Assembly: GCA_900314525.1 (NCBI GenBank)
Contig: OMVN01000024.1
Span: forward strand, 1 to 32,045
Reading direction: 5' to 3'
Source of the DNA: an uncultured Eubacteriales bacterium
Lineage (GTDB): Bacteria > Bacillota > Clostridia > Lachnospirales > Lachnospiraceae
DNA length: 32,045 nucleotides
The stretch's first letter is position 1. Every line of letters starts with the position of its first letter. The notes below the pieces were generated by a model. The model was not told the DNA's origin and ran no database searches. It worked only from the letters and a program-made list of their open reading frames with translations. Of the stretch, positions 7,961 through 28,968 are shown one piece after another. Both the position numbers and the translations under genes were made by a program.

Positions 7961-9781
7961 ATGAGATTAAAGAAAATTACAATCTTAATATTATTAGTAA
8001 TCATTTTATTTTCTTTGTTCCCATCTTATATGAAGGTGAATGCAGATGAGAATAATCGTACAGTTGTCCGTGTTGGATATGTTGAAATTGATAACATGAT
8101 GGAAGGTATGAGTGATGATGCGGAAAAATCTGGACTTGGATATGAATATATACAGAAAGTATCATATTACACCAATTGGGATTATGAATATGTGTATGGA
8201 GACTGGGACACCATTTTAGAAAAACTATATAATGGTGAGATTGATATTCTGGCAGGTGTTTCAAAGAATGATGAAACGCAGCAGAAAATACTTTTTCCTG
8301 AATATTCAATGGGGTCAGAAAATTATTATCTTGGGGTTGCAAAAAATAGAACGGATCTCCTGAATCAGCTTAACTGTGCTTTATCAAAGATTTCGTCTAC
8401 AGATCCTAATTTTACAAGAAGACTGACTGATAAGTATCTTTTGGGAGTATCAGTTAATACGCAGATGCAGGAAGATGAACTGAAATGGATAGATCAGCAT
8501 AAGATAATTTGTATTGGATATATGAAGGATTATATGCCATTTTCTGACTGCACCAAGAATGGTGAAGCAACAGGAATAGTAACCGATATTATGGATGAAA
8601 TTCTAAAGGTATTGGATATTCAGGGGAAAATCAAACTGAGATATGTGGCATTTAATAAAAACAAAGATATGATTAAGGCACTTAATAGTGGAAAAATTGA
8701 TGTGGCATTTCCAGTAGAAGATAATGTATCATTAGCTGATAAAAATAAAATATTTCTTACTTCTTCAGTCATTACAACATCAATGAATCTGGCATTTAAG
8801 GGAGATTATGATGAGGGTGATACTAAAACAATTGCTGTCAGAAAAGGAAATACACTTCAAGAAGAATATACACGCACTCATTATCCCAATGCAAAAATAT
8901 TGTATTATGATACATTTGAAGAATCACTTAATGCAGTAATGAGCGGGAAAGCAGGTTCCATTATTATCAATGATTTTCGTAAAGATGGGTACTTAAATAA
9001 TACAAGATATAAAGAGTTAAACACAGCTCAGCTCCCCGATACAAGTAGTCGCTGTCTTGCAGTAAATGCAGGAGAAAATGAGCTTCTGTCAATTTTAAAC
9101 AGAGGCATAACTAATCTGCCAGAAAATTATTCAATAACAGCAACATACAAATATATTGGACGACTTGCAGATTATACAGTTGAGGATTATGTGAATGATC
9201 ATTATTTATTGGTGATTATACTTGTTGCAGTTATAATTGCAGTGATTTGCGGTTTTGTTGCATACATAGTAAATAGTAAAAGTAAAAGAGATATTCTGTA
9301 TGAAATGGCACATAAAGACAGTATGACAGGAATCTTTAACCGCAGGGCATTTGATGAAAAAATGGATGGGTATGGTAAATCTATTGTTGGAGGAAATATG
9401 ATGATTCTTATGATGGATTTAAATGGACTAAAAAAAGTAAATGATACATTAGGACATGAAGTTGGGGACGAAATGATAGAAGGAGCAGCAGGATGTATGA
9501 AAAGAATATTAAGTCCTTATGGTGAAATCTATCGAACTGGCGGAGATGAATTTGTTGCAATTATAAATATAAGAAAATCGGAGCAAAATAAATTAATTAA
9601 ATCTCTAAATAAATCTTTTAGTGAATGGAAAGGAAAGATCTGTGATTCACTTTCAGCTTCTATAGGATATTATTATTGCGACGATGAATCAAAACTTACT
9701 ATGAAAGATTTGATGCTGATTTCAGACCAGCGGCTGTATAAACAGAAAGATATATATTACAATAAAAATAAAGAAATTTAA
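7961..9781 (+). CDS. Membrane diguanylate cyclase with SBP-type sensor
   Basis: The 606-residue protein starts with a signal/anchor segment (residues 6-28), has an extracellular part with amino-acid-binding-protein (SBP_bac_3) character, a transmembrane helix at about 414-437 (LLVIILVAVIIAVICGFVAYIV is its core region), and a C-terminal GGDEF domain. The active-site loop is an intact GGDEF near residues 527-531 and the DxLT-like D/N residues (DLNGLKKVNDTLGHEVGD) are present, so it should make c-di-GMP. The inhibitory RxxD site is absent: the equivalent residues are SPYG. The second SBP unit (about 180-400) looks full length. The first (about 35-170) is short: the early lobe (VVRVGYVEID...YGDWDTILEKL) runs directly into what is normally its end (ENYYLGVAKNRTDLLNQL), which suggests a deletion of roughly 70-85 residues. 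Good ribosome site TGGAGG. Confidence 0.88.
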   Translation: MRLKKITILILLVIILFSLFPSYMKVNADENNRTVVRVGYVEIDNMMEGMSDDAEKSGLGYEYIQKVSYYTNWDYEYVYGDWDTILEKLYNGEIDILAGVSKNDETQQKILFPEYSMGSENYYLGVAKNRTDLLNQLNCALSKISSTDPNFTRRLTDKYLLGVSVNTQMQEDELKWIDQHKIICIGYMKDYMPFSDCTKNGEATGIVTDIMDEILKVLDIQGKIKLRYVAFNKNKDMIKALNSGKIDVAFPVEDNVSLADKNKIFLTSSVITTSMNLAFKGDYDEGDTKTIAVRKGNTLQEEYTRTHYPNAKILYYDTFEESLNAVMSGKAGSIIINDFRKDGYLNNTRYKELNTAQLPDTSSRCLAVNAGENELLSILNRGITNLPENYSITATYKYIGRLADYTVEDYVNDHYLLVIILVAVIIAVICGFVAYIVNSKSKRDILYEMAHKDSMTGIFNRRAFDEKMDGYGKSIVGGNMMILMMDLNGLKKVNDTLGHEVGDEMIEGAAGCMKRILSPYGEIYRTGGDEFVAIINIRKSEQNKLIKSLNKSFSEWKGKICDSLSASIGYYYCDDESKLTMKDLMLISDQRLYKQKDIYYNKNKEI

Positions 9782-20199: not shown

Positions 20200-21002
20200 A
20201 TGGAGAAGGTAGAAAAGGAGGCTATATGGCCAGGTCCTGAGGGAATGATTCCCTCACTTCCAAAGGACGCATCAAATGCATCATGGCATACCAGACATTT
20301 TCTGGATGAAATTCTCATTGAAGAGAGAATTATAGGCACAAGGGAAGCAGAGATTACAATGAATTTATTTGGAGAAAAGTTTGCATCCCCAATTATGATG
20401 CCTGCTTTTTCACATCTTAATAAAGTGGGATTATCTCATAAACCTATGCAAGAGTATGCCATGGCGGCAAAAGAGATGAATATCGTGAACTGGGTTGGAA
20501 TGGAAACTGATGAGGAATTTGCAGAGATTGCATCAGTAGGTGCTAAAACAATAAATTTGCGGATTTTCCCCATGAACTAAATCTTCCATTTATAGCCAAG
20601 GGTGTATTAAGTTCTAGAGATGCTGCACTTTGTAAAAATGCAGGTATTGATGGAATAGTTATAAGTCACCATCATGGAAGGCTTCCATTTGCTGTACCCC
20701 CTCTTATGGTATTATCAGAAATTAAAGCTGTATCAGGAGATATGAAAATATTTGTTGACTGTAGTATGGATGATGGCAGGGATGTATATAAAGCAATGGC
20801 ATTAGGCGCTGATGCTGTATCAGTTGGAAGAGGAATTCTTCCAGGCTTGATAAAAGAAGGAAAAGATGGTGTTATAAAGAAAGTATCCAGAATAAATGAA
20901 GAACTACGAGAATTAATGGGGTATACCGGGGTTAAGAATGTATCTGAATTTGATCCTGCTGTTCTTTGGTATCACGGAAGACATTTTACAGATAATAATT
21001 AG
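20200..21002 (+). pseudogene. FMN-dependent alpha-hydroxyacid dehydrogenase with internal loss
   Basis: The N-terminal part (from MEKVEKEAIWPGPEG to GAKTI near 20560) and the C-terminal part (from NLPFIAKGVLSSRDA at 20580) lie in different frames. The C-terminal part keeps the FMN-barrel features: the catalytic-loop SHHHGR, KIFVDCSMDDGRDVYKAMALGADAVSVGRG (FMN phosphate site). Between them only about 12 residues remain where relatives such as lactate oxidase-like proteins have some 70, including the GMDIDH strand. So the gene has probably lost about 180 bases and its frame. The active-site core is missing and the product cannot be functional. Relatives oxidise lactate, glycolate or similar acids. 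Ribosome site GGAGG; it follows DUF2798 closely. Confidence 0.75.
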
Positions 21003-21017
21003 GATAATTCAATTAGA

Positions 21018-21054
21018 AAGGCAGATATATCATTTCAGATATATCTGCCTTTTA
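21018..21054 (+). terminator. Terminator after the hydroxyacid dehydrogenase remnant
   Basis: AAGGCAGATATAT pairs with ATATATCTGCCTT around CATTTCAG, then a T-run. The stem is essentially perfect. Confidence 0.92.
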
Positions 21055-21077
21055 TTGTATAAAAAAAACGTTAAATG

Positions 21078-21086
21078 TGATATAAT
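21078..21086 (+). promoter_or_regulatory. Extended -10 promoter for the MFS gene
   Basis: TGATATAAT is an extended -10 (TGn plus TATAAT). No good -35 lies at 16-18 bases, as is common for this class. The gene starts 32 bases downstream. Confidence 0.55.
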
Positions 21087-21118
21087 TAGTAAAAATTTAC
21101 TGGACTAGAGATGATAAA

Positions 21119-22312
21119 ATGGAAAAAAAGAAAAAATACGTAAAAGGTGCACTGGCATTTATATTTCTTATGGGAATAGTAAGTCTGTTTTCTGACATGA
21201 CTCATGAGGGAGCAAGGAGTATTTTAGGAGAATATCTGAATCTTACTGGAGCCACAGCTGCTACAATTGGATTTGTCTCAGGACTGGGTGAACTTCTTGG
21301 TTATGGACTGAGAATTGTATCAGGACGAATAGCAGACAGAACAAAACATTACTGGACACTTGTAATAATAGGATATACAGTCCAGGTACTTGCAATTCCA
21401 GCACTTGCTTTGGTACCAGAAAATGGTTGGATTCTTGCATGTGGACTTGTTATCATGGAACGAGTTGGAAAGGCAATAAAAAAACCTGCTAAGAACACTC
21501 TTGTCAGTTTTGCTTCGTCGGAAATTGGACAGGGAAAAGGTTTTGCCTATCAGGAATTTCTAGATCAGTTAGGAGCTTTTCTTGGACCAGTTATACTTTT
21601 TATAATCGGATATGTGAAGAAAGCAGATAAGCTCATGTCAACATACAGAATTTGTTTTCTGATTCTTGGAATACCGGCATTGATTACAATTTCTCTAGTA
21701 TTAATTTCAAAATATAAATATCCCCATCCAGAAATGTTTGAAAAAGTAGAAATTTCAGATGACAAGTTCACAATGAGAAAATCATTTATATTTTATATGA
21801 TTGCAATTAGTTTATTTGCATTTGGATTTCTTGATTTCACACTTATTACATTACATGCGGCAAAAACTAATGCTTTTCCAAAGGAATCATTAAGTCTTTT
21901 GTATGCCTTAGCAATGGCGGTTGATGCATTTGCAGCATTATTCTTTGGCTGGATGTTTGATAAGATAGGACTGAGGGCATTGATGATTTCTACACTTATA
22001 AGCAGCTTGTTTTCACCACTTATTTTTCTTTCAGACAATAAAATATTTATTCTTGCTGGAATTGTAGTATGGGGAATTGGAATGGGTGCACAGGAAAGTA
22101 TAATGAAGGCAGCAGTTAGCAGAATTATCCCAAGAAATACGAGATCAACAGGATTTGGAATTTTTGAGACAGGATTTGGAATTTTTTGGTTCCTTGGAAG
22201 CTGGTGTATGGGGGCACTTTATGATATTAATGTTATAGTAATGGTTGGAATTTCAGTAGTAGTGCAGTTGTCAGCAATTATTTTTTACTGGATAGCAAAT
22301 AGGACTAACTAG
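21119..22312 (+). CDS. Major facilitator superfamily transporter
   Basis: A 397-residue protein with twelve predicted helices. The first cytoplasmic loop has the MFS motif A-like GLRIVSGRIADRTKHYW, and the mid-protein counterpart is FFGWMFDKIGLRALM at about 275-290. The N-terminal stretch FSDMTHEGARSILGEYL and the ERVGKAIKKPAKNTLVS segment are typical of a drug/anion exporter-like subgroup often annotated simply as MFS. Substrate is unknown; the neighbours (hydroxyacid dehydrogenase remnant before, LUD protein after) hint at a small organic acid, but this is inference. The ribosome site is weak. The coding frame is intact from start to stop. Confidence 0.88.
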   Translation: MEKKKKYVKGALAFIFLMGIVSLFSDMTHEGARSILGEYLNLTGATAATIGFVSGLGELLGYGLRIVSGRIADRTKHYWTLVIIGYTVQVLAIPALALVPENGWILACGLVIMERVGKAIKKPAKNTLVSFASSEIGQGKGFAYQEFLDQLGAFLGPVILFIIGYVKKADKLMSTYRICFLILGIPALITISLVLISKYKYPHPEMFEKVEISDDKFTMRKSFIFYMIAISLFAFGFLDFTLITLHAAKTNAFPKESLSLLYALAMAVDAFAALFFGWMFDKIGLRALMISTLISSLFSPLIFLSDNKIFILAGIVVWGIGMGAQESIMKAAVSRIIPRNTRSTGFGIFETGFGIFWFLGSWCMGALYDINVIVMVGISVVVQLSAIIFYWIANRTN

Positions 22313-22331
22313 GAATTAAGGGGGGAGAATT

Positions 22332-22528
22332 ATGCAGTAAATGAATTGCATTTAAAACTAAAGTCAGAGATTCTTAATCAGAAGGCACATAATATTTCTG
22401 CGGATAGTGACTGGTAAACAAATGAAATTGGTAAGCATAGATATAGAAATTTGGCAAAAGAGAATAACACTCACATTGTACTTGATAAGCAGTTACTTAA
22501 GCAGACAGATTCAGTAGCAATCGATTGA
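22332..22528 (+). pseudogene. Short broken reading frame before the LUD gene
   Basis: A strong ribosome site (AAGGGGGGAG) precedes an ATG at 22332 that stops after two codons. If one base is restored just after it, the frame reads MAVNELHLKLKSEILNQKAH, then ISADSDW, TAA at 22415-22417, then TNEIGKHRYRNLAKENNTHI and on to a TGA at 22526. The coding-like composition on both sides of the TAA suggests a single small gene of about 65 codons that carries a frameshift and a nonsense codon. I do not recognise the product. Confidence 0.45.
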
Positions 22529-22571
22529 ATTGATTCATTTACAAGGAAATGGTGAGTTAAGGAGATTATTA

Positions 22572-23180
22572 ATGGAACAGATAAAAATATTAGCTGAAGC
22601 TTTGATAAAACAGGGATATATTGTAGAGTGTTTTGAGACAAAGGAAGAAGCAGTTGAGTTTCTTGATGGTGAATTAGATAAAAAGATTATTGGAATTGGA
22701 GGATCTCAGACTGTAGAGCAAATGGGATTATTCCCCGCTCTTGCATCTCATAATACAGTTTACTGGCATGATAAAAAACCAGATAATATGACTATTATGG
22801 AGATAAGACGGGCTGCATCTCGTGCTGCTGTATATATATCATCAGTGAATGCTATATCAGAATTTGGAGATATTGTTAATATTGATGGTACAGGAAATAG
22901 AGTGGCTGCAATTTCATTTGGACCAGATGATATATATTTTGTAGTCGGAAAAAATAAGATAACAAAAGATTACGAATCAGCAATGTATCGAGCAAGAAAT
23001 GTTGCGGCACCATTAAATGCAAAAAGATTAAACAGAAAGACACCATGTGCAATCAATGCAGATAAATGCTATGACTGCAAAAGTTCTGATAGAATATGTA
23101 GAAATTTTGTAGTGTTTAGAAATATGCCATCTGGTGCAAGATATCATGTTATTTTGATAAATGAAAATTTAGGATTTTAA
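22572..23180 (+). CDS. LUD-domain protein (lactate-utilisation type)
   Basis: The 202-residue protein is a stand-alone LUD (DUF162/LutC-like) domain. It has GGSQTVEQMGL at residues 43-53, the conserved AASRAAVYISSVNAISEFGDIVNIDGTGNRVAAI region seen in pieces, and a C-terminal cysteine group NADKCYDCKSSDRICRNF that could bind metal. LUD proteins take part in lactate oxidation or related redox steps. AAGGAG lies seven bases before the ATG at 22572; an upstream TTG at 22530 is not supported. It follows the MFS gene and a broken small gene, and it sits near the hydroxyacid dehydrogenase remnant, which would fit an old lactate-linked cluster now partly lost. Confidence 0.85.
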   Translation: MEQIKILAEALIKQGYIVECFETKEEAVEFLDGELDKKIIGIGGSQTVEQMGLFPALASHNTVYWHDKKPDNMTIMEIRRAASRAAVYISSVNAISEFGDIVNIDGTGNRVAAISFGPDDIYFVVGKNKITKDYESAMYRARNVAAPLNAKRLNRKTPCAINADKCYDCKSSDRICRNFVVFRNMPSGARYHVILINENLGF

Positions 23181-23506
23181 AATATAGTTATGAAAATAGG
23201 GAATATAAAGTTTTTGTTGCTAATGATAACGACGTAGTTACTTCCTCAATGTTTGTATATTTAATACCTAAAACACCAAAGCCAAATAGAAATCAAAAGT
23301 ATATTTCATATTTGACAAATGTGTATACTAGAAAGGAATATAGAAATAAGAATATTGGTACAGAATTATTAGAATATATTAAGGAATATCTGGCAAAACA
23401 GGATTGTGAATTGATATTTGTATGGCCTAGTAGAAATTCTGTTAATTGGTATATGAGGAATGATTTTACTAATGAAAATGAAATATTCCAGCATTCTATA
23501 AAATAA
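23180..23506 (+). pseudogene. C-terminal part of a GNAT acetyltransferase
   Basis: An open stretch of about 105 codons without start or ribosome site reads YSYENREYKVFVANDNDVV, then YLTNVYTRKEYRNKNIGTELL and NWYMRNDFTNENEIFQHSI. The middle is GNAT motif A (R-x-x-x-x-G-x-x-L, the acetyl-CoA pyrophosphate loop), preceded by the usual beta-strand with LTNVYT. The first 50 or so residues of the family are missing: the frame emerges directly out of the end of the LUD gene. This suggests a deletion that removed the 5' part of the gene. Confidence 0.65.
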
Positions 23507-23600
23507 TCGAATATGTAAGCATATATGTGGAAAAAAGAGTAGAAAATCATGTTATGTTGTAGAATAAATTATGTAAAAAGATAATTTTAAGGAGCAGTAA

Positions 23601-23752
23601 ATGTCTGATTTATTAGAAAAACAAGAAAAATAGAGGACGCAATAGAAAGGATGACATCTCAGGAGCCATATCATTGCAGTCCGTTTGATAATCCACCCCA
23701 GTTAAAGAAAAGGGCAAAGGATTTAATGATAAAAAAATATAAGTGGAGGTAA
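23601..23752 (+). pseudogene. Small conserved-type gene with one-base frameshift
   Basis: AAGGAG and ATG at 23601 open MSDLLEKQEK, then stop at TAG. Adding one A to the run at 23626-23630 gives a 50-residue protein that continues IEDAIERMTSQEPYHCSPF and DNPPQLKKRAKDLMIKKYKW, ending three bases before the next gene's ATG. The tight fit to the downstream gene and good ribosome site argue that this was a real small partner gene of the flavodoxin-like reductase. Product not recognised. Confidence 0.5.
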
Positions 23753-23755
23753 AAA

Positions 23756-24304
23756 ATGATTTTATTTGTAAATTGTTGCATAAGAAGTGAGTCAAGAACA
23801 AAAAGGCTTGCAGACAGTCTTCTAGAAAAACTAGGACAATATGAAGAAATAAAGCTTGAAGAAATAAATCTGAAACAAATAAACAGGGAAAGATTAAACA
23901 AAAGGACGTCTTTGATAGAAGATTCAGAATTTGATAATCCTATGTTTAATCTTGCAAAACAGTGGGCAAATGCCGACATAATAGTAATAGCGGCTCCTTT
24001 CTGGGATTTGTCTTTTCCTTCAGAGCTAAAGATGTATATTGAAAATATATATGTCACTGGAATTGTATCAGAATACGGAGATGATGGAAGACCTCAGGGC
24101 CTATGCAAGGCAGAAAAGCTATATTATGTAACTACAGCTGGGGGACCATATAATGATAAGTATGGATATCAATATATAAGAGATATTTCCTTAAATTATT
24201 TTGGGATAAAAGAAACAAAACAGATATATGCTGAAATGCTTGATATAGTTGGAAATGATCCTGAAAAGATTCTTAAAGAAGCTATAGAAAATATTACATT
24301 ATAG
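23756..24304 (+). CDS. Flavodoxin-fold NAD(P)H oxidoreductase
   Basis: The 182-residue protein has a flavodoxin-like fold of the AcpD/NQO type: the FMN-phosphate loop NCCIRSESRTKRLAD at the N-terminus, the second flavin loop APFWDLSFPSELKMYIENI, and the third TTAGGPYNDKYGYQYI. Such enzymes reduce quinones, azo compounds or flavins with NAD(P)H. AGTGGAGG precedes the ATG. It forms a compact group with the damaged 50-residue gene before it and the pyridoxamine-oxidase-like gene 13 bases after it; a redox or detoxification role is likely. The substrate cannot be assigned. Confidence 0.85.
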   Translation: MILFVNCCIRSESRTKRLADSLLEKLGQYEEIKLEEINLKQINRERLNKRTSLIEDSEFDNPMFNLAKQWANADIIVIAAPFWDLSFPSELKMYIENIYVTGIVSEYGDDGRPQGLCKAEKLYYVTTAGGPYNDKYGYQYIRDISLNYFGIKETKQIYAEMLDIVGNDPEKILKEAIENITL

Positions 24305-24317
24305 ATTGGAGAGATAG

Positions 24318-24800
24318 ATGACTGAATTTAGAAAAATGAGAAGATTTAAACAGGAAATTTCAGCAGAAGAATGTGTAGAAGTTTTATGTACGGCACCCCG
24401 TGGAATATTAGCATTTAATGGTGAAAATGGTTATCCATATGCAATTCCAATTAATCAATTTTATGATAAAGAAGATGGAAAACTATATTTTCATTGTGCT
24501 AAGCAGGGACTAAAATTAGACTTGATGGAAAAGGACAATAAAGTCTGTTTCACTGTTATAGATGAGGGATATAGAAAAGATGGAGAATGGGCACTCAACA
24601 TTAGAAGTGTTGTTTGTCTTGGACATTTAGAAGTAATAAATGATCATGGAAAAGTTCTTGACCAATGTCGTAAGCTCGCAGGAAAATTTTACCCAACAGA
24701 GGAATCGATAGAAGAAGAGATTATTAAAGCGGGTGATCGGGTTAATATGCTTGTTATGACAATCGACCGAATGAATGGAAAATTAGTAAATGAATCATAA
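24318..24800 (+). CDS. Pyridoxamine 5'-phosphate oxidase-like (NimA-type) flavoprotein
   Basis: A 160-residue protein with the split-barrel FMN-binding fold: the start MRRFKQEISAEECVEVL, strand APRGILAFNGENGYPYAIPINQFYDKE..KLYFHCAKQGLK, and SVVCLGHLEVI with GKFYPTEE near the end. This layout is that of the 5-nitroimidazole-resistance NimA-like family and related flavin reductases. The Nim assignment describes homology; activity on nitroimidazoles is unproven. GGAGA lies before the ATG. It follows the flavodoxin-like gene by 13 bases and was probably co-transcribed with it. Confidence 0.85.
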   Translation: MTEFRKMRRFKQEISAEECVEVLCTAPRGILAFNGENGYPYAIPINQFYDKEDGKLYFHCAKQGLKLDLMEKDNKVCFTVIDEGYRKDGEWALNIRSVVCLGHLEVINDHGKVLDQCRKLAGKFYPTEESIEEEIIKAGDRVNMLVMTIDRMNGKLVNES

Positions 24801-24805
24801 TAATT

Positions 24806-24964
24806 GTGAAATTATTATTTCCATGGAATTATGACCAGATTGTAAGATCATATTTGCAGGAAGACAAGAAAATCATGGACTATGACACAGGTGGAGCGGA
24901 ATATTTGCTTTCATTGTATGAAGGAACTATACACAGATATCTTATAGTTGCAAAAAAGAAATAG
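24806..24964 (+). pseudogene. Collapsed class I SAM methyltransferase
   Basis: A 52-codon frame from a GTG reads KLLFPWNYDQIVRSYLQ, then DKKIMDYDTGGAEYLLSL, then directly YEGTIHRYLIVAKKK and a stop. The first part is the N-terminus and motif I (D-x-GTGG-E-x-LL) of a common Firmicute methyltransferase family. The last part (HR-[FY]-[IL]-IVA-KK) is its extreme C-terminus. About 180 central codons that should lie between are missing, with the frame kept. It is thus a two-ended fossil formed by one internal deletion. Confidence 0.7.
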
Positions 24965-24988
24965 AAAAAACAAAGGTAATTCACAAAT

Positions 24989-25918
24989 ATGGATAAATCA
25001 AAAAATAATATAGCCTATTATCACCTTCCAGGATTGTTTGAATTCTATGAACTTTACAAAAAATTTCTACCAATTTTTCGTGAACATAGAGAATATTTTT
25101 ATGACTGGTGTGATATCGGATCAATTTACGGTGCTCCATCAGACTGTATTTGGGGTGGAGGACGCATCGAAATTGGAGGACAAAATCCTGAGGAAGTACT
25201 TAAATTAACAGAAGAGTATGGAATATCAGCAAGACTGACATTTAGCAATTCACTGCTAACTCTGGAGCATTTATCAGATAATAAATGTAATGAATTCTGC
25301 AGATTATTTGAACAAAAGTCAAATAAGGAAAATGAAAATAAGATTCAAAATGGAGTTATTGTATATTCAGATTTACTTGTAAATTATCTGAAGAAAAATT
25401 ATCCATCACTTTATCTGATTTCATCAACCACAAAAGTACTAACCAATTTTGATGATTTAATTAATGAGATAAATCGCGCAGAGTTTAAGTATGTTGTTCC
25501 TGATTTTAGATTAAATAAAATTTATGAAAGATTAAGAACAATGACAGAAAAACAAAAAAACAAAGTTGAATTTCTCTGTAATGAATGTTGTTATTATGGT
25601 TGTGCTGACAGAAAAGCATGTTATGAGACTGTCAGCAGACAAAATCTTTTGGAGAATTGCCCAGACCATGTATGCACTGCACCTGGTGCAGAGGAAGGTT
25701 ATGTATTCTCTAAGGCAATGACAAATTCAGGATTTATCGGTATAGATGATATTCAGGAGATATATTTGCCAATGGGATTTTCGAATTTTAAAATAGAAGG
25801 CAGAGGGCTTGGAAGTGCATTGGTTTTGGAATTTCTGCTTTATTATATGACTAAGCCAGAGTATCAGCTAAATGTTAGAGAGAAAATATATTTGGATAAT
25901 ATGCTGGATTTATTCTAA
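24989..25918 (+). CDS. Putative U32-like TIM-barrel protein with cysteine cluster
   Basis: The 309-residue protein has barrel-type alternation of helices and strands (GRIEIGGQNPEEVLKL, NGVIVYSDLLVNYLK, LYLISSTTKVL, KYVVPDFRLN) and a cysteine cluster at Cys197, Cys200, Cys201, Cys205, Cys211, Cys224 and Cys229, in a CNECCYYGCADRKAC context. This resembles the metal or iron-sulfur site of peptidase-U32/UbiV-type proteins, though overall similarity is too weak for a firm call. A later stretch PMGFSNFKIEGRGLGS also fits that family (the KIEGR motif). A role in an RNA- or quinone-modifying or proteolytic reaction is possible. The ribosome site is weak. The frame is intact. Confidence 0.6.
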   Translation: MDKSKNNIAYYHLPGLFEFYELYKKFLPIFREHREYFYDWCDIGSIYGAPSDCIWGGGRIEIGGQNPEEVLKLTEEYGISARLTFSNSLLTLEHLSDNKCNEFCRLFEQKSNKENENKIQNGVIVYSDLLVNYLKKNYPSLYLISSTTKVLTNFDDLINEINRAEFKYVVPDFRLNKIYERLRTMTEKQKNKVEFLCNECCYYGCADRKACYETVSRQNLLENCPDHVCTAPGAEEGYVFSKAMTNSGFIGIDDIQEIYLPMGFSNFKIEGRGLGSALVLEFLLYYMTKPEYQLNVREKIYLDNMLDLF

Positions 25919-25922
25919 TCTA

Positions 25923-25967
25923 TGGTATAATACTAAAGTTAAAATTAAATTAGAACGTTAATTTAAT
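25923..25967 (+). promoter_or_regulatory. Extended -10 promoter and hairpin in the slyD leader
   Basis: TGGTATAAT at 25923-25931 is an extended -10. Downstream, ATTAAATTA (25944-25952) and TAATTTAAT (25959-25967) form a perfect nine-base stem around GAACGT. The hairpin is AT-only and could stabilise the mRNA 5' end. Confidence 0.45.
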
Positions 25968-25998
25968 AAAATTAATCTAATAGAAACGGAGATTTATT

Positions 25999-26550
25999 AT
26001 GGAAGACAATAAGAATTACGAAGAAAATATCGATGAAAACATTACAGATGGTGAGTGTGAGGATTGTAGTGAAGGTAGTTGCAGCAGCTGTAGCGGATGT
26101 GGAAATTATAAGCCTGATTTTGATGGACCAAATGTTGGTAAAAGAGTAAAAGTACATTACAAAGGTACATTTGATGATGGAACACAGTTTGATTCATCTT
26201 ATGACAGAGGACTACCACTTGAATTTGAATGTGGAGCAGGAAGAATGATTCATGGATTTGACAAGGCTGTAGCAACAATGAATGCTGGAGAAACAGTAAA
26301 TATTCACTTAACACCTGATGAAGCTTATGGGGAAAGAAATCCTGAGGCAATTATTAATGTTAAAATAAGCGAATTACCAGGAGCAGATAATCTTAATGTA
26401 GGGGATCATGTTGCATTAACTAATTCTTTTGGACAATCATTTCCTGTAATTGTTATTGAGAAAGATGATGATAATATAGTATTTGATGCTAATCATGAGA
26501 TGGCTGGCAAGGAACTTAATTTCCAGATAGAATTGGTAGAGATTTTATGA
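25999..26550 (+). CDS. SlyD-type FKBP peptidyl-prolyl isomerase with N-terminal cysteine motif
   Basis: The 183-residue protein has an FKBP domain (VKVHYKGTFDDGTQFDSSYDRGLPLEF, then MIHGFDKAVATMNAGET) with the IF insert-in-flap region of SlyD (TPDEAYGERNPEAIINVKI ... GVGDHVALTN-like), and it folds proline bonds. Unlike Escherichia coli SlyD, whose metal-binding His/Cys tail is C-terminal, it carries an N-terminal extension with Cys20, Cys23, Cys28, Cys31 and Cys34 in a CxxCx4CxxCxxC pattern. This suggests metal binding at the other end of the protein. It overlaps the next gene by four bases (ATGA), so the two are coupled. Ribosome site GGAG. Confidence 0.92.
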   Translation: MEDNKNYEENIDENITDGECEDCSEGSCSSCSGCGNYKPDFDGPNVGKRVKVHYKGTFDDGTQFDSSYDRGLPLEFECGAGRMIHGFDKAVATMNAGETVNIHLTPDEAYGERNPEAIINVKISELPGADNLNVGDHVALTNSFGQSFPVIVIEKDDDNIVFDANHEMAGKELNFQIELVEIL

Positions 26551-27041
26551 TTAAAGAAGAACTGATTACTAAGATGACTGAATTTAATGCAGGAGATCCA
26601 AAACAGATTCAGCATCTTATCAAAGTATATGAGTTTGCACATACGATAGGAGTTAAGGAGTGCATAGACCAGGGGACTCTTCGTATTCTTGATATTGCAT
26701 CAATAATGCATGATATTGGTATAAAGCCAGCAAGAGAAAAATATGGAAATACAAATGGAAAACTTCAGGAACAGGAAGGACCAGCATATGCTAAGATAAT
26801 GCTTGGTGAATTTAAAGACATTTCGGATGAAGAGATAAATAGAGTATGCTACCTAATTGCACATCATCACACATATGAAGAGATTGATGGTATTGATTAT
26901 CAGATTTTACTGGAGGCAGATTTTCTTGTAAATGCTTTTGAGGATAGGCTTGAAAAAGAAGAAATAAGTCATTTTAGAAATAAGATTTTTAAAACAAAAA
27001 CGGGAATATATTTGCTAAATACAATGTTTGGATTGGAATAA
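26547..27041 (+). CDS. HD-domain phosphohydrolase
   Basis: A 164-residue protein with a complete HD signature: His23 in IQHLIKVYEF, His55-Asp56 in ASIMHDIGIK, the paired His in LIAHHHTYE, and Asp in LLEADFLVNAFED. HD proteins cleave phosphate esters of nucleotides; this small form is seen widely and its substrate is unknown. It overlaps slyD by ATGA, so the product is made in step with SlyD. Length and motifs are intact. The next 180 bases hold only a possible remnant. Confidence 0.88.
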   Translation: MIKEELITKMTEFNAGDPKQIQHLIKVYEFAHTIGVKECIDQGTLRILDIASIMHDIGIKPAREKYGNTNGKLQEQEGPAYAKIMLGEFKDISDEEINRVCYLIAHHHTYEEIDGIDYQILLEADFLVNAFEDRLEKEEISHFRNKIFKTKTGIYLLNTMFGLE

Positions 27042-27080
27042 TTTTTGATTAATGTTAACCACCAGGTTTGATTTAGATAA

Positions 27081-27170
27081 ATAAATCATTTTGCAATTTG
27101 TGAACGACAGGATTTAATTGGTGCAAAAAATCACTGCCTTGATATTTTAAGAAAAGAGAAAAGTTTATAG
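27081..27170 (+). pseudogene. Possible coding remnant before xpt
   Basis: One frame is open for 29 codons, reads INHFAICERQDLIGAKNHCL and then DILRKEKSL, and ends in TAG at 27168. The composition is coding-like and it has no start or ribosome site, so it looks like the tail of a lost gene. Product not recognised. No purine riboswitch is seen in 27042-27261; a short hairpin (AAAGTTT/AAACTTT) lies at about 27159-27177. Confidence 0.3.
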
Positions 27171-27261
27171 AAACTTTCGTGGTAAGGTATATCGTCATAT
27201 GTTACAATTTTTTATAGAATAATAAATGTTATGCTTGAAGATAAACCGAAAGGAGTTTTAT

Positions 27262-27573
27262 ATGAATTTTCTAGAAAATAGAATTGCAAAGGATGGGGCA
27301 GTTAAGGAAGGAAATGTATTAAAAGTTGGAAGTTTTCTTAATCATCAGATGGACATAAGGTTATTCCAGCAAATGGGAGAAGAATTCAAAAGGCGATTTG
27401 AAGAAAAGGAAATAAATAAAATTTTGACAATAGAATCATCAGGAATAGGGATTGAAAAGGGTTTTCAGCCAGGAGGCACAATTATAAGAAATCTTGGATA
27501 TCAGCTTGAATCACTAGCAATTGTTGAATCAATGGATGCAGAAACTGGAACAATTACATTTAGAGAGCAATAA
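27262..27573 (+). pseudogene. xpt: Xanthine phosphoribosyltransferase with internal deletion
   Basis: The N-terminal part (NFLENRIAKDGAVKEGNVLK, then VGSFLNHQMDIRLFQQMGEEF and NKILTIESSGI) and the C-terminal part (EKGFQPGG ... GYQLESLAIVESMDAETG) are those of Xpt, but they are joined directly. Against the Bacillus subtilis enzyme (194 residues) this 103-residue form lacks about 90 central residues, including the VVFARKHKS base-binding stretch and the VLIIDDFLANG PRPP loop. The frame is kept. It cannot bind PRPP, so purine salvage by this enzyme is lost. AAAGGAG precedes the ATG. It is followed two bases later by the permease that also has an internal deletion. Confidence 0.85.
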
Positions 27574-27575
27574 TT

Positions 27576-28208
27576 ATGGGTGAAGGAATGTATAAAAAAT
27601 CAAGTGTGGATTATATTTATAAATTAGATGGAAGAGTTCCTTTATCAAAAGCAATACCATTTGGATTGCAGCACATTCTGGCAATTTCGGGATTGGATAG
27701 AAATGTTCAAGAAAAAGAAACATCTGGGGCTATAGCTTGTGATGGTTTTGTAAGTGCATTTTCAACAGTGTTTGGATGCATTCCAATTACATCATTTAGT
27801 CAGAATATTGGTTTGATAGCAATGACAAAAGTTGTTAATAGAATGGTGATTTCGACAGGTGCAGTTATAATGCTTTTAGCAGGTATATTTCCTAGTATAG
27901 GAGCAATACTTGCAACCCTCCCAGATGCAGTACTTGGTGGATGTACTATAATGATGTTTGGAAATATTGTTATCAGTGGATTACAGATGCTTGGAAGATG
28001 CGGCTTTTCGCAAAGAAATATTACAATTACAGCACTGTCATTAAGTGTGGGTATTGGCTTTACACAGGTTCCGGAAATATTTGCAATTTTTCCAGAAACA
28101 ATACAGAATGTCTTTGCACAGAATTGTGTTGCTATTGTATTTTTGATGGCAGTTGTTTTGAATCTGATTTTACCTATGAAAAAGGAGAATTCAAATGGCA
28201 CTAAATAG
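27576..28208 (+). pseudogene. Xanthine/uracil permease with internal deletion
   Basis: The start (VPLSKAIPFGLQHILA) is the first-helix motif of the nucleobase:cation symporter family (PbuX-like). It runs straight into ISGLDRNVQEKETSGAIACDGF and the later PITSFSQNIGLI, which normally lie around residue 265. About 240 residues, including helices 1-7, are missing; the rest through the C-terminal helices is preserved and in frame. The 210-residue product should not transport. It was the partner of xpt for taking up xanthine. Its end overlaps the next gene's start by 14 bases. Confidence 0.85.
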
Positions 28209-28968
28209 AAAAGAAATTAAAAAAGTTTTTGAGACATATACTTCCAATTATGATATAAATGATATTAAAGTGAAGCTAAAGGTGGATCATACATACCGAG
28301 TTGCAAGCTTATGTGACAAGATAGCAAAAAGTTTGAATATGAATGCTAGTGACTGTGATTTTGCATGGATGTCTGGAATATTACATGATATTGGAAGATT
28401 TGAACAGTTGAGAAGATTTAGTACATTTCAGGATAAAGATTCAGTAAATCATGCTGCGCTTAGTGCAGACTTATTATTTAATGAAAACCTAATTTGTGAA
28501 TTTACAGATGAGGATGAAATTGACTATTCATGTATGGAGAAAGTTATAAGATATCATAATGTATTGGCATTGCCAGAAAATCAGGAAGAACGAGAGCATA
28601 CTTTTTGTGACATATTGCGTGACGCAGATAAGATTGATATTTTGAGGGTAAACTGTGAAACCCCAAGAACAGAGATTTATGATTTATCAGAAGAGAAATT
28701 TGCTTATTCTAGTATAACTGATGCTGTATTTGAAGATATAATTAGCGGTCGAAGTGTGGACAGGAGAAACAGCAGGACTGGAATTGACTTTATATTGGGA
28801 CATATAGCATTTGTTTATGGATTAAATTTTGAAGAGAGTTTTCGTGAAGTTAAACGTCAGGGATATCTTCAAAAATTACTTGATTTTAAAAGTGAAAATC
28901 CAGATACTGCAGAAAAAATGAGACAGATTTCTGTCAAAATAAATAAATATCTTAAAGATAATATTTGA
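28195..28968 (+). CDS. HD-domain phosphohydrolase
   Basis: This 257-residue protein has His32 in VDHTYRVASLCD, His64-Asp65 in GILHDIGRFE, the downstream His in IRYHNVLAL, and the Asp in LRDADKIDILR, which complete the HD metal site. It differs from the other HD protein of the window in size and C-terminal helices (RNSRTGIDFILGHIAFVYG). Substrate unknown, probably a nucleotide. AAGGAG precedes the ATG inside the end of the permease frame, so it was coupled to the xpt-permease operon. It is intact while its upstream partners are not. Confidence 0.86.
   Translation: MALNRKEIKKVFETYTSNYDINDIKVKLKVDHTYRVASLCDKIAKSLNMNASDCDFAWMSGILHDIGRFEQLRRFSTFQDKDSVNHAALSADLLFNENLICEFTDEDEIDYSCMEKVIRYHNVLALPENQEEREHTFCDILRDADKIDILRVNCETPRTEIYDLSEEKFAYSSITDAVFEDIISGRSVDRRNSRTGIDFILGHIAFVYGLNFEESFREVKRQGYLQKLLDFKSENPDTAEKMRQISVKINKYLKDNI

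Follow-up and report, generated by a model that had tools for sequence, protein, structure and literature searches.

The window analysed here, a stretch of 32,045 nucleotides, makes up the entire contig 31 in a draft genome (G000; 2.36 Mb, 72 contigs, 99.66% complete), and it was compared with nine congeners of G000. Between positions 20,200 and 28,208, damaged genes form a local cluster on the forward strand. They encode an FMN-dependent alpha-hydroxyacid dehydrogenase (FMN_dh), a GNAT acetyltransferase, a methyltransferase, a xanthine phosphoribosyltransferase (xpt), and a xanthine permease (pbuX). The genes hit by deletion are accessory and patchy within the genus. The stretch itself is marked as accessory by gene 21119-22312, presumably a transporter of the MFS type, which has a match in none of the nine congeners. 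For gene 26547-27041, the closest named relatives among the matches listed (80 loci) share 67-73% identity with it and belong to MAGs that bear the names Lachnospiraceae or Eubacterium; two of these MAGs come from horse faeces.

FMN_dh is split into two abutting pieces that lie in different frames. The PF01070-like 5′ piece (20200-20559, forward strand) corresponds over 20203-20559 to residues 19-137 of a 338-residue homologue (L208, from genome G052) at 69% identity, and the 3′ piece (20556-20999, forward strand) corresponds over 20556-20987 to residues 195-338 at 67% identity. Compared with this best homologue, 57 residues are missing at about 20556-20562, and the frame is shifted. The family search matched 44 of 150 genomes, including G000, many of the matches being more distant paralogues. 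A full match was found in none of the nine congeners, and the homologues in other genera are full length. A 40-residue match in G007, considered as a case of parallel decay, was dropped, as it sits close to a locus end and shows no similarity to the window copy.

The methyltransferase and GNAT genes are more reduced remnants, both on the forward strand. Aligned to a methyltransferase of 253 residues (L228), the piece at 24821-24916 represents residues 38-69, and the piece at 24917-24964 represents residues 241-253 or thereabouts (24923-24961) and the stop; the 171 residues between them are gone, in frame. Residues 1-37 were looked for upstream of the first piece and were not found. The original prediction held that four genes keep both ends and lack their centre; this is correct for FMN_dh, xpt, and pbuX and wrong for the methyltransferase, whose first 37 residues are also absent. 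The methyltransferase family search matched 10 of 150 genomes, including G000. The GNAT frame (23186-23503) opens at 23186 with no start codon of its own, and seven homologues carry 25-56 more N-terminal residues, a rough estimate given their 24-38% identity. The 5′ loss proposed for this gene is thus supported. Its family search matched 51 of 200 genomes, again including G000.

In xpt (27262-27573, forward strand), 90 internal residues are missing in frame, leaving 103 amino acids where G001, G004, and G006 have 193. The deletion takes out the segment VLIIDDFLANG, which we take to be the PRPP-binding loop. pbuX (27576-28208, forward strand) aligns as two pieces, 27603-27686 and 27678-28205, with the junction at about 27678-27687; 235 of its roughly 441 residues, more than half of the length, are lost, also in frame. 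Both frames are open and free of stops, and a ribosome-binding-like sequence lies upstream of xpt. The G000 assembly contains no intact xpt or pbuX, the only permease of the pbuX family found in it is the damaged copy, and the missing middles of both genes were not found elsewhere in it. At gathering score, Rfam gave no match beside xpt in the window or in G001, G004, or G006, and no purine riboswitch appeared in the window at a loose threshold.

Only three of the nine congeners (G001, G004, and G006) have xpt over the family cut-off, and the same three have close pbuX matches (67-71% identity); the others show just weak matches to related phosphoribosyltransferases. The short form of xpt or pbuX occurs in none of the three. 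The retained part of xpt is 81-85% identical to the intact copies, which are 80-91% identical among themselves, and this comparable similarity suggests little decay after the cut. For pbuX, the retained part is 63-66% identical to intact copies, a figure somewhat lowered by about 14 misaligned residues, compared with 74-82% among intact copies; its C-terminal piece alone is 70% identical to that of G004. The lower identity of pbuX could reflect longer decay.

The aligned losses of 57, 171, 90, and 235 residues come close to the sizes of about 60, 180, 90, and 240 first estimated for FMN_dh, the methyltransferase, xpt, and pbuX. As had been proposed, three of these four deletions are in frame, FMN_dh being the frameshifted one, and the alignments to longer homologues bear out breakage by internal deletion with few stops. 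Relatives sharing the short architecture would have counted against the original prediction, and none was found for xpt, pbuX, or FMN_dh: xpt and pbuX are full in three congeners, and FMN_dh is full in other genera.

The neighbouring genes checked look intact, as the original prediction stated, with near-full coverage of profiles or homologues. The alignments cover profile positions 3-189 of 189 in the LUD gene, 3-194 of 198 in the flavodoxin-like gene, and 2-151 of 153 in the Nim-like gene. Gene 24989-25918 is matched across nearly its full length in G003, G004, and G008, and 163 of 164 residues of the HD gene (26547-27041) are covered in G009. The Nim-like gene (24318-24800), of the 5-nitroimidazole reductase kind, scores 113 bits against a cut-off of 260 and is therefore a relative of that family rather than a called member. 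Two further forward-strand segments are possible remnants: 22313-22528, where one frame is broken by a stop and no Pfam match exceeds the cut-off, and 23601-23752, spread over two frames and with no Pfam match. A further open frame, presumably HD-domain-like, lies at 28195-28968 on the forward strand, and its start overlaps the pbuX stop.

The junctions were examined for direct repeats by comparing the longest exact run and the 18-base match count with sampled same-gene position pairs, relatives standing in for the ancestral sequence; those of FMN_dh and the methyltransferase are too distant to judge. At the xpt junction, the window has a single copy of a 13-base motif (27442-27454, forward strand). 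G006 has two imperfect copies, alike at 11 of 13 bases, at the matching places: GGAATTGGTATTG and GGAATTGCAATTG mark either end of what the window has lost, in register with the deletion, and one copy is left in the window. The longest exact runs for xpt are 7 bases in G006 and 5 in both G004 and G001, reached by 0.5%, 4.4%, and 5.3% of pairs, respectively. For pbuX, runs of 3 bases (G006) and 6 bases (G004) are reached by 39% and 1.5% of pairs. The 18-base match counts correspond to 5% (G006), 14% (G004), and 35% (G001) for xpt and to 6% (G006) and 14% (G004) for pbuX. The repeat signal therefore varies with the relative chosen as reference. Repeats at the deletion ends, a suggested check, give a suggestive signal for xpt with G006, a weak one with G004 and G001, and none for pbuX with G006. 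The xpt junction is suggestive of deletion between imperfect 13-base repeats, whereas the indications of short repeats at the pbuX junction are mixed. Ku-type end joining is unlikely, as G000 has no Ku match; one of the ten genus genomes (G009) has one. Three in-frame deletions out of four have a probability of 0.11 by chance, which is not significant.

How general such deletions are was assessed in 880,071 readable bases sampled from G000 (37% of the genome, the window among them), with comparison samples of 722,106 bases from G003, 215,808 from G004, and 1,381,102 from other loci. G000 stretches reading as N (31,210 bases: L115-L118 and L134) and all-N stretches of G003 and G004 were excluded from the sample and later counts. 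References for the window genes were deliberately sought, so window and remainder yield no fair rate ratio. In G000, the short or split sites L126, L135, L142, L149, L251, and L255 stand as flagged, as do the events in G003 and G004 apart from the reciprocal of L152, which was inspected. At 45% identity, window included, short sites number 15 of 118 in G000, 4 of the 15 being window genes, 8 of 99 in G003, and 3 of 54 in G004. At 50% identity, with the window and its references removed, the counts are 7 of 97, 4 of 86, and 3 of 49. At 60% identity or above, again without the window and its chosen references, they are 3 of 63, 0 of 54, and 3 of 39. One of the three G004 sites in this last count is the reciprocal of the length-variable gene L152, and two were counted by shortness alone, one of these lying 44 bases away from the end of its contig. 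Open frames cover 0.867 of the G000 sample and 0.851 and 0.848 of the congener samples. In uncovered sequence, 30 of 153 overlapping bins exceed the 8-kb stretch, so the stretch is not extreme.

Among the three G000 sites at 60% identity or above, one is a real large deletion. This trpB-like gene (L243:5246-6379; G000:C42, about 25.2-26.4 kb) lacks its first 196 residues, and its start aligns with residue 197 in relatives. Members of its family exceed the cut-off in seven of nine congeners but in none of G000, G001, and G006; G000 contig 17 carries another, more distant member of about 400 amino acids. A T-box-like leader remains upstream of the cut gene, with no Rfam match at the gathering score of 93 and a score of 88.4 bits (E = 5.1e-20) at a looser threshold. 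Other candidates were rejected: L152:18928-19584, presumably a MerR-like protein, has a variable middle; the L148 reference has too long a start; L120, L139, L150, L152:14106-14699, and L254 show domain-level or end differences at about 47-55% identity; and the frame of the L144:6448 phosphoesterase runs on upstream to a TTG. At L147:6980-8035 (G000:C45), two secreted-protein genes are seemingly joined in one frame, with one partial Pfam match, and a run of 45 N lies nearby at 8463-8507. L249:7866-9248 (G000:C35) encodes a 461-residue protein with a partial match to a polymerase III alpha domain (PF07733, 2-111 of 260), and it could represent a remnant or, alternatively, a short paralogue.

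Several clean junctions in one 72-contig draft, plus the trpB-like one, could arise from assembly errors in which contig ends were joined over unassembled sequence. This explanation is unlikely. The overlaps at the xpt and pbuX junctions are short and imperfect, and such overlaps are shorter than the usual assembly words. Gaps in this assembly are written as N, with three runs in the 880,071 sampled readable bases and none in the window. The short overlaps and the absence of N speak for real deletions. The lack of the xpt and pbuX middles in the rest of the assembly points the same way, as does the preserved frame at three of four joins, although the latter alone is not significant. That xpt and pbuX are working reduced proteins is highly improbable. 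Their stop-free frames and the ribosome-binding-like sequence ahead of xpt would fit such a role, but VLIIDDFLANG is gone from xpt, more than half of pbuX is lost, and none of the three congeners with these genes has the short form.

If repair or recombination were defective throughout the lineage, making internal deletion unusually frequent, this would account for four damaged genes and possible remnants lying together within 8 kb, for the cut trpB-like gene outside the window, and for the higher G000 count at 45% identity, window genes included. Such a defect is nevertheless very unlikely, given the similar open-frame coverage and the counts at 60% identity or above outside the window, where just one of the three G000 sites is real. 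The general recombination or repair bias raised by the original prediction, and with it a genome-wide deletion bias, is not shown by the 37% sample and its few references. A more specific idea, also very unlikely, is that large deletions between short imperfect repeats have become more frequent in this lineage, so that genes are lost by excision of their centres while the frame and the expression of downstream genes are preserved, with the 8-kb stretch as a hot spot.

The explanation is probably neutral decay, recent in origin, in which dispensable genes lose sequence through RecA-independent deletion between short repeats. An accessory chromosome stretch would carry metabolic genes that the lineage has ceased to need, and gene centres or 5′ ends would have been removed by deletions of about 170 to 700 bases, producing recent pseudogenes. 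As the likely mechanism, short imperfect direct repeats would slip or anneal during replication, independently of RecA. The genes are dispensable, as xpt and pbuX are patchy in the genus (three of nine) and no congener has a full FMN_dh. Accessory, patchy genes and a hardly decayed xpt remainder fit fresh neutral loss, and the longer homologues of all four genes and the further large deletion in the trpB-like gene also speak for this explanation. The somewhat more diverged pbuX remainder and the repeat signals that are weak or absent with some relatives count against it. The patchy presence of xpt and pbuX speaks to dispensability only and does not separate selective from neutral loss of salvage. 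Selection for loss is possible, as is selection to retain the frame, given the overlap between the pbuX stop and the next open frame, which starts at 28195.

The locus offers a snapshot of salvage and redox gene loss in a Lachnospiraceae-type bacterium, with clean cuts and few point lesions, the module being present in some relatives and absent from others. The locus also carries a warning: a short gene that stays in frame, as xpt and pbuX do here, may be annotated in a draft as working even though its core is gone. The process resembles ordinary, ongoing gene loss of a kind documented elsewhere rather than a new one. For Sodalis endosymbionts, the published account describes inactivation followed by loss of pseudogene sequence via deletions under relaxed selection (PMC11137140). 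The genes described here likewise shed sequence through deletions, but in a 2.36-Mb Lachnospiraceae-type genome whose sampled coding fraction is like that of its congeners. For the fish-adapted ST261 branch of Streptococcus agalactiae, the published account attributes 76 gene disruptions to deletions, 21 to insertions, and 19 to replacements; it ascribes most indels to RecA-independent recombination between repeats and describes reduction as ongoing (PMC3637634). Whereas 621 simple indels were mapped among close strains of that species, the present case comprises four or five genes of a single draft genome, for which no relative closer than the genus was available; what it shares with ST260-261 is reductive evolution by deletion (PMC3637634).
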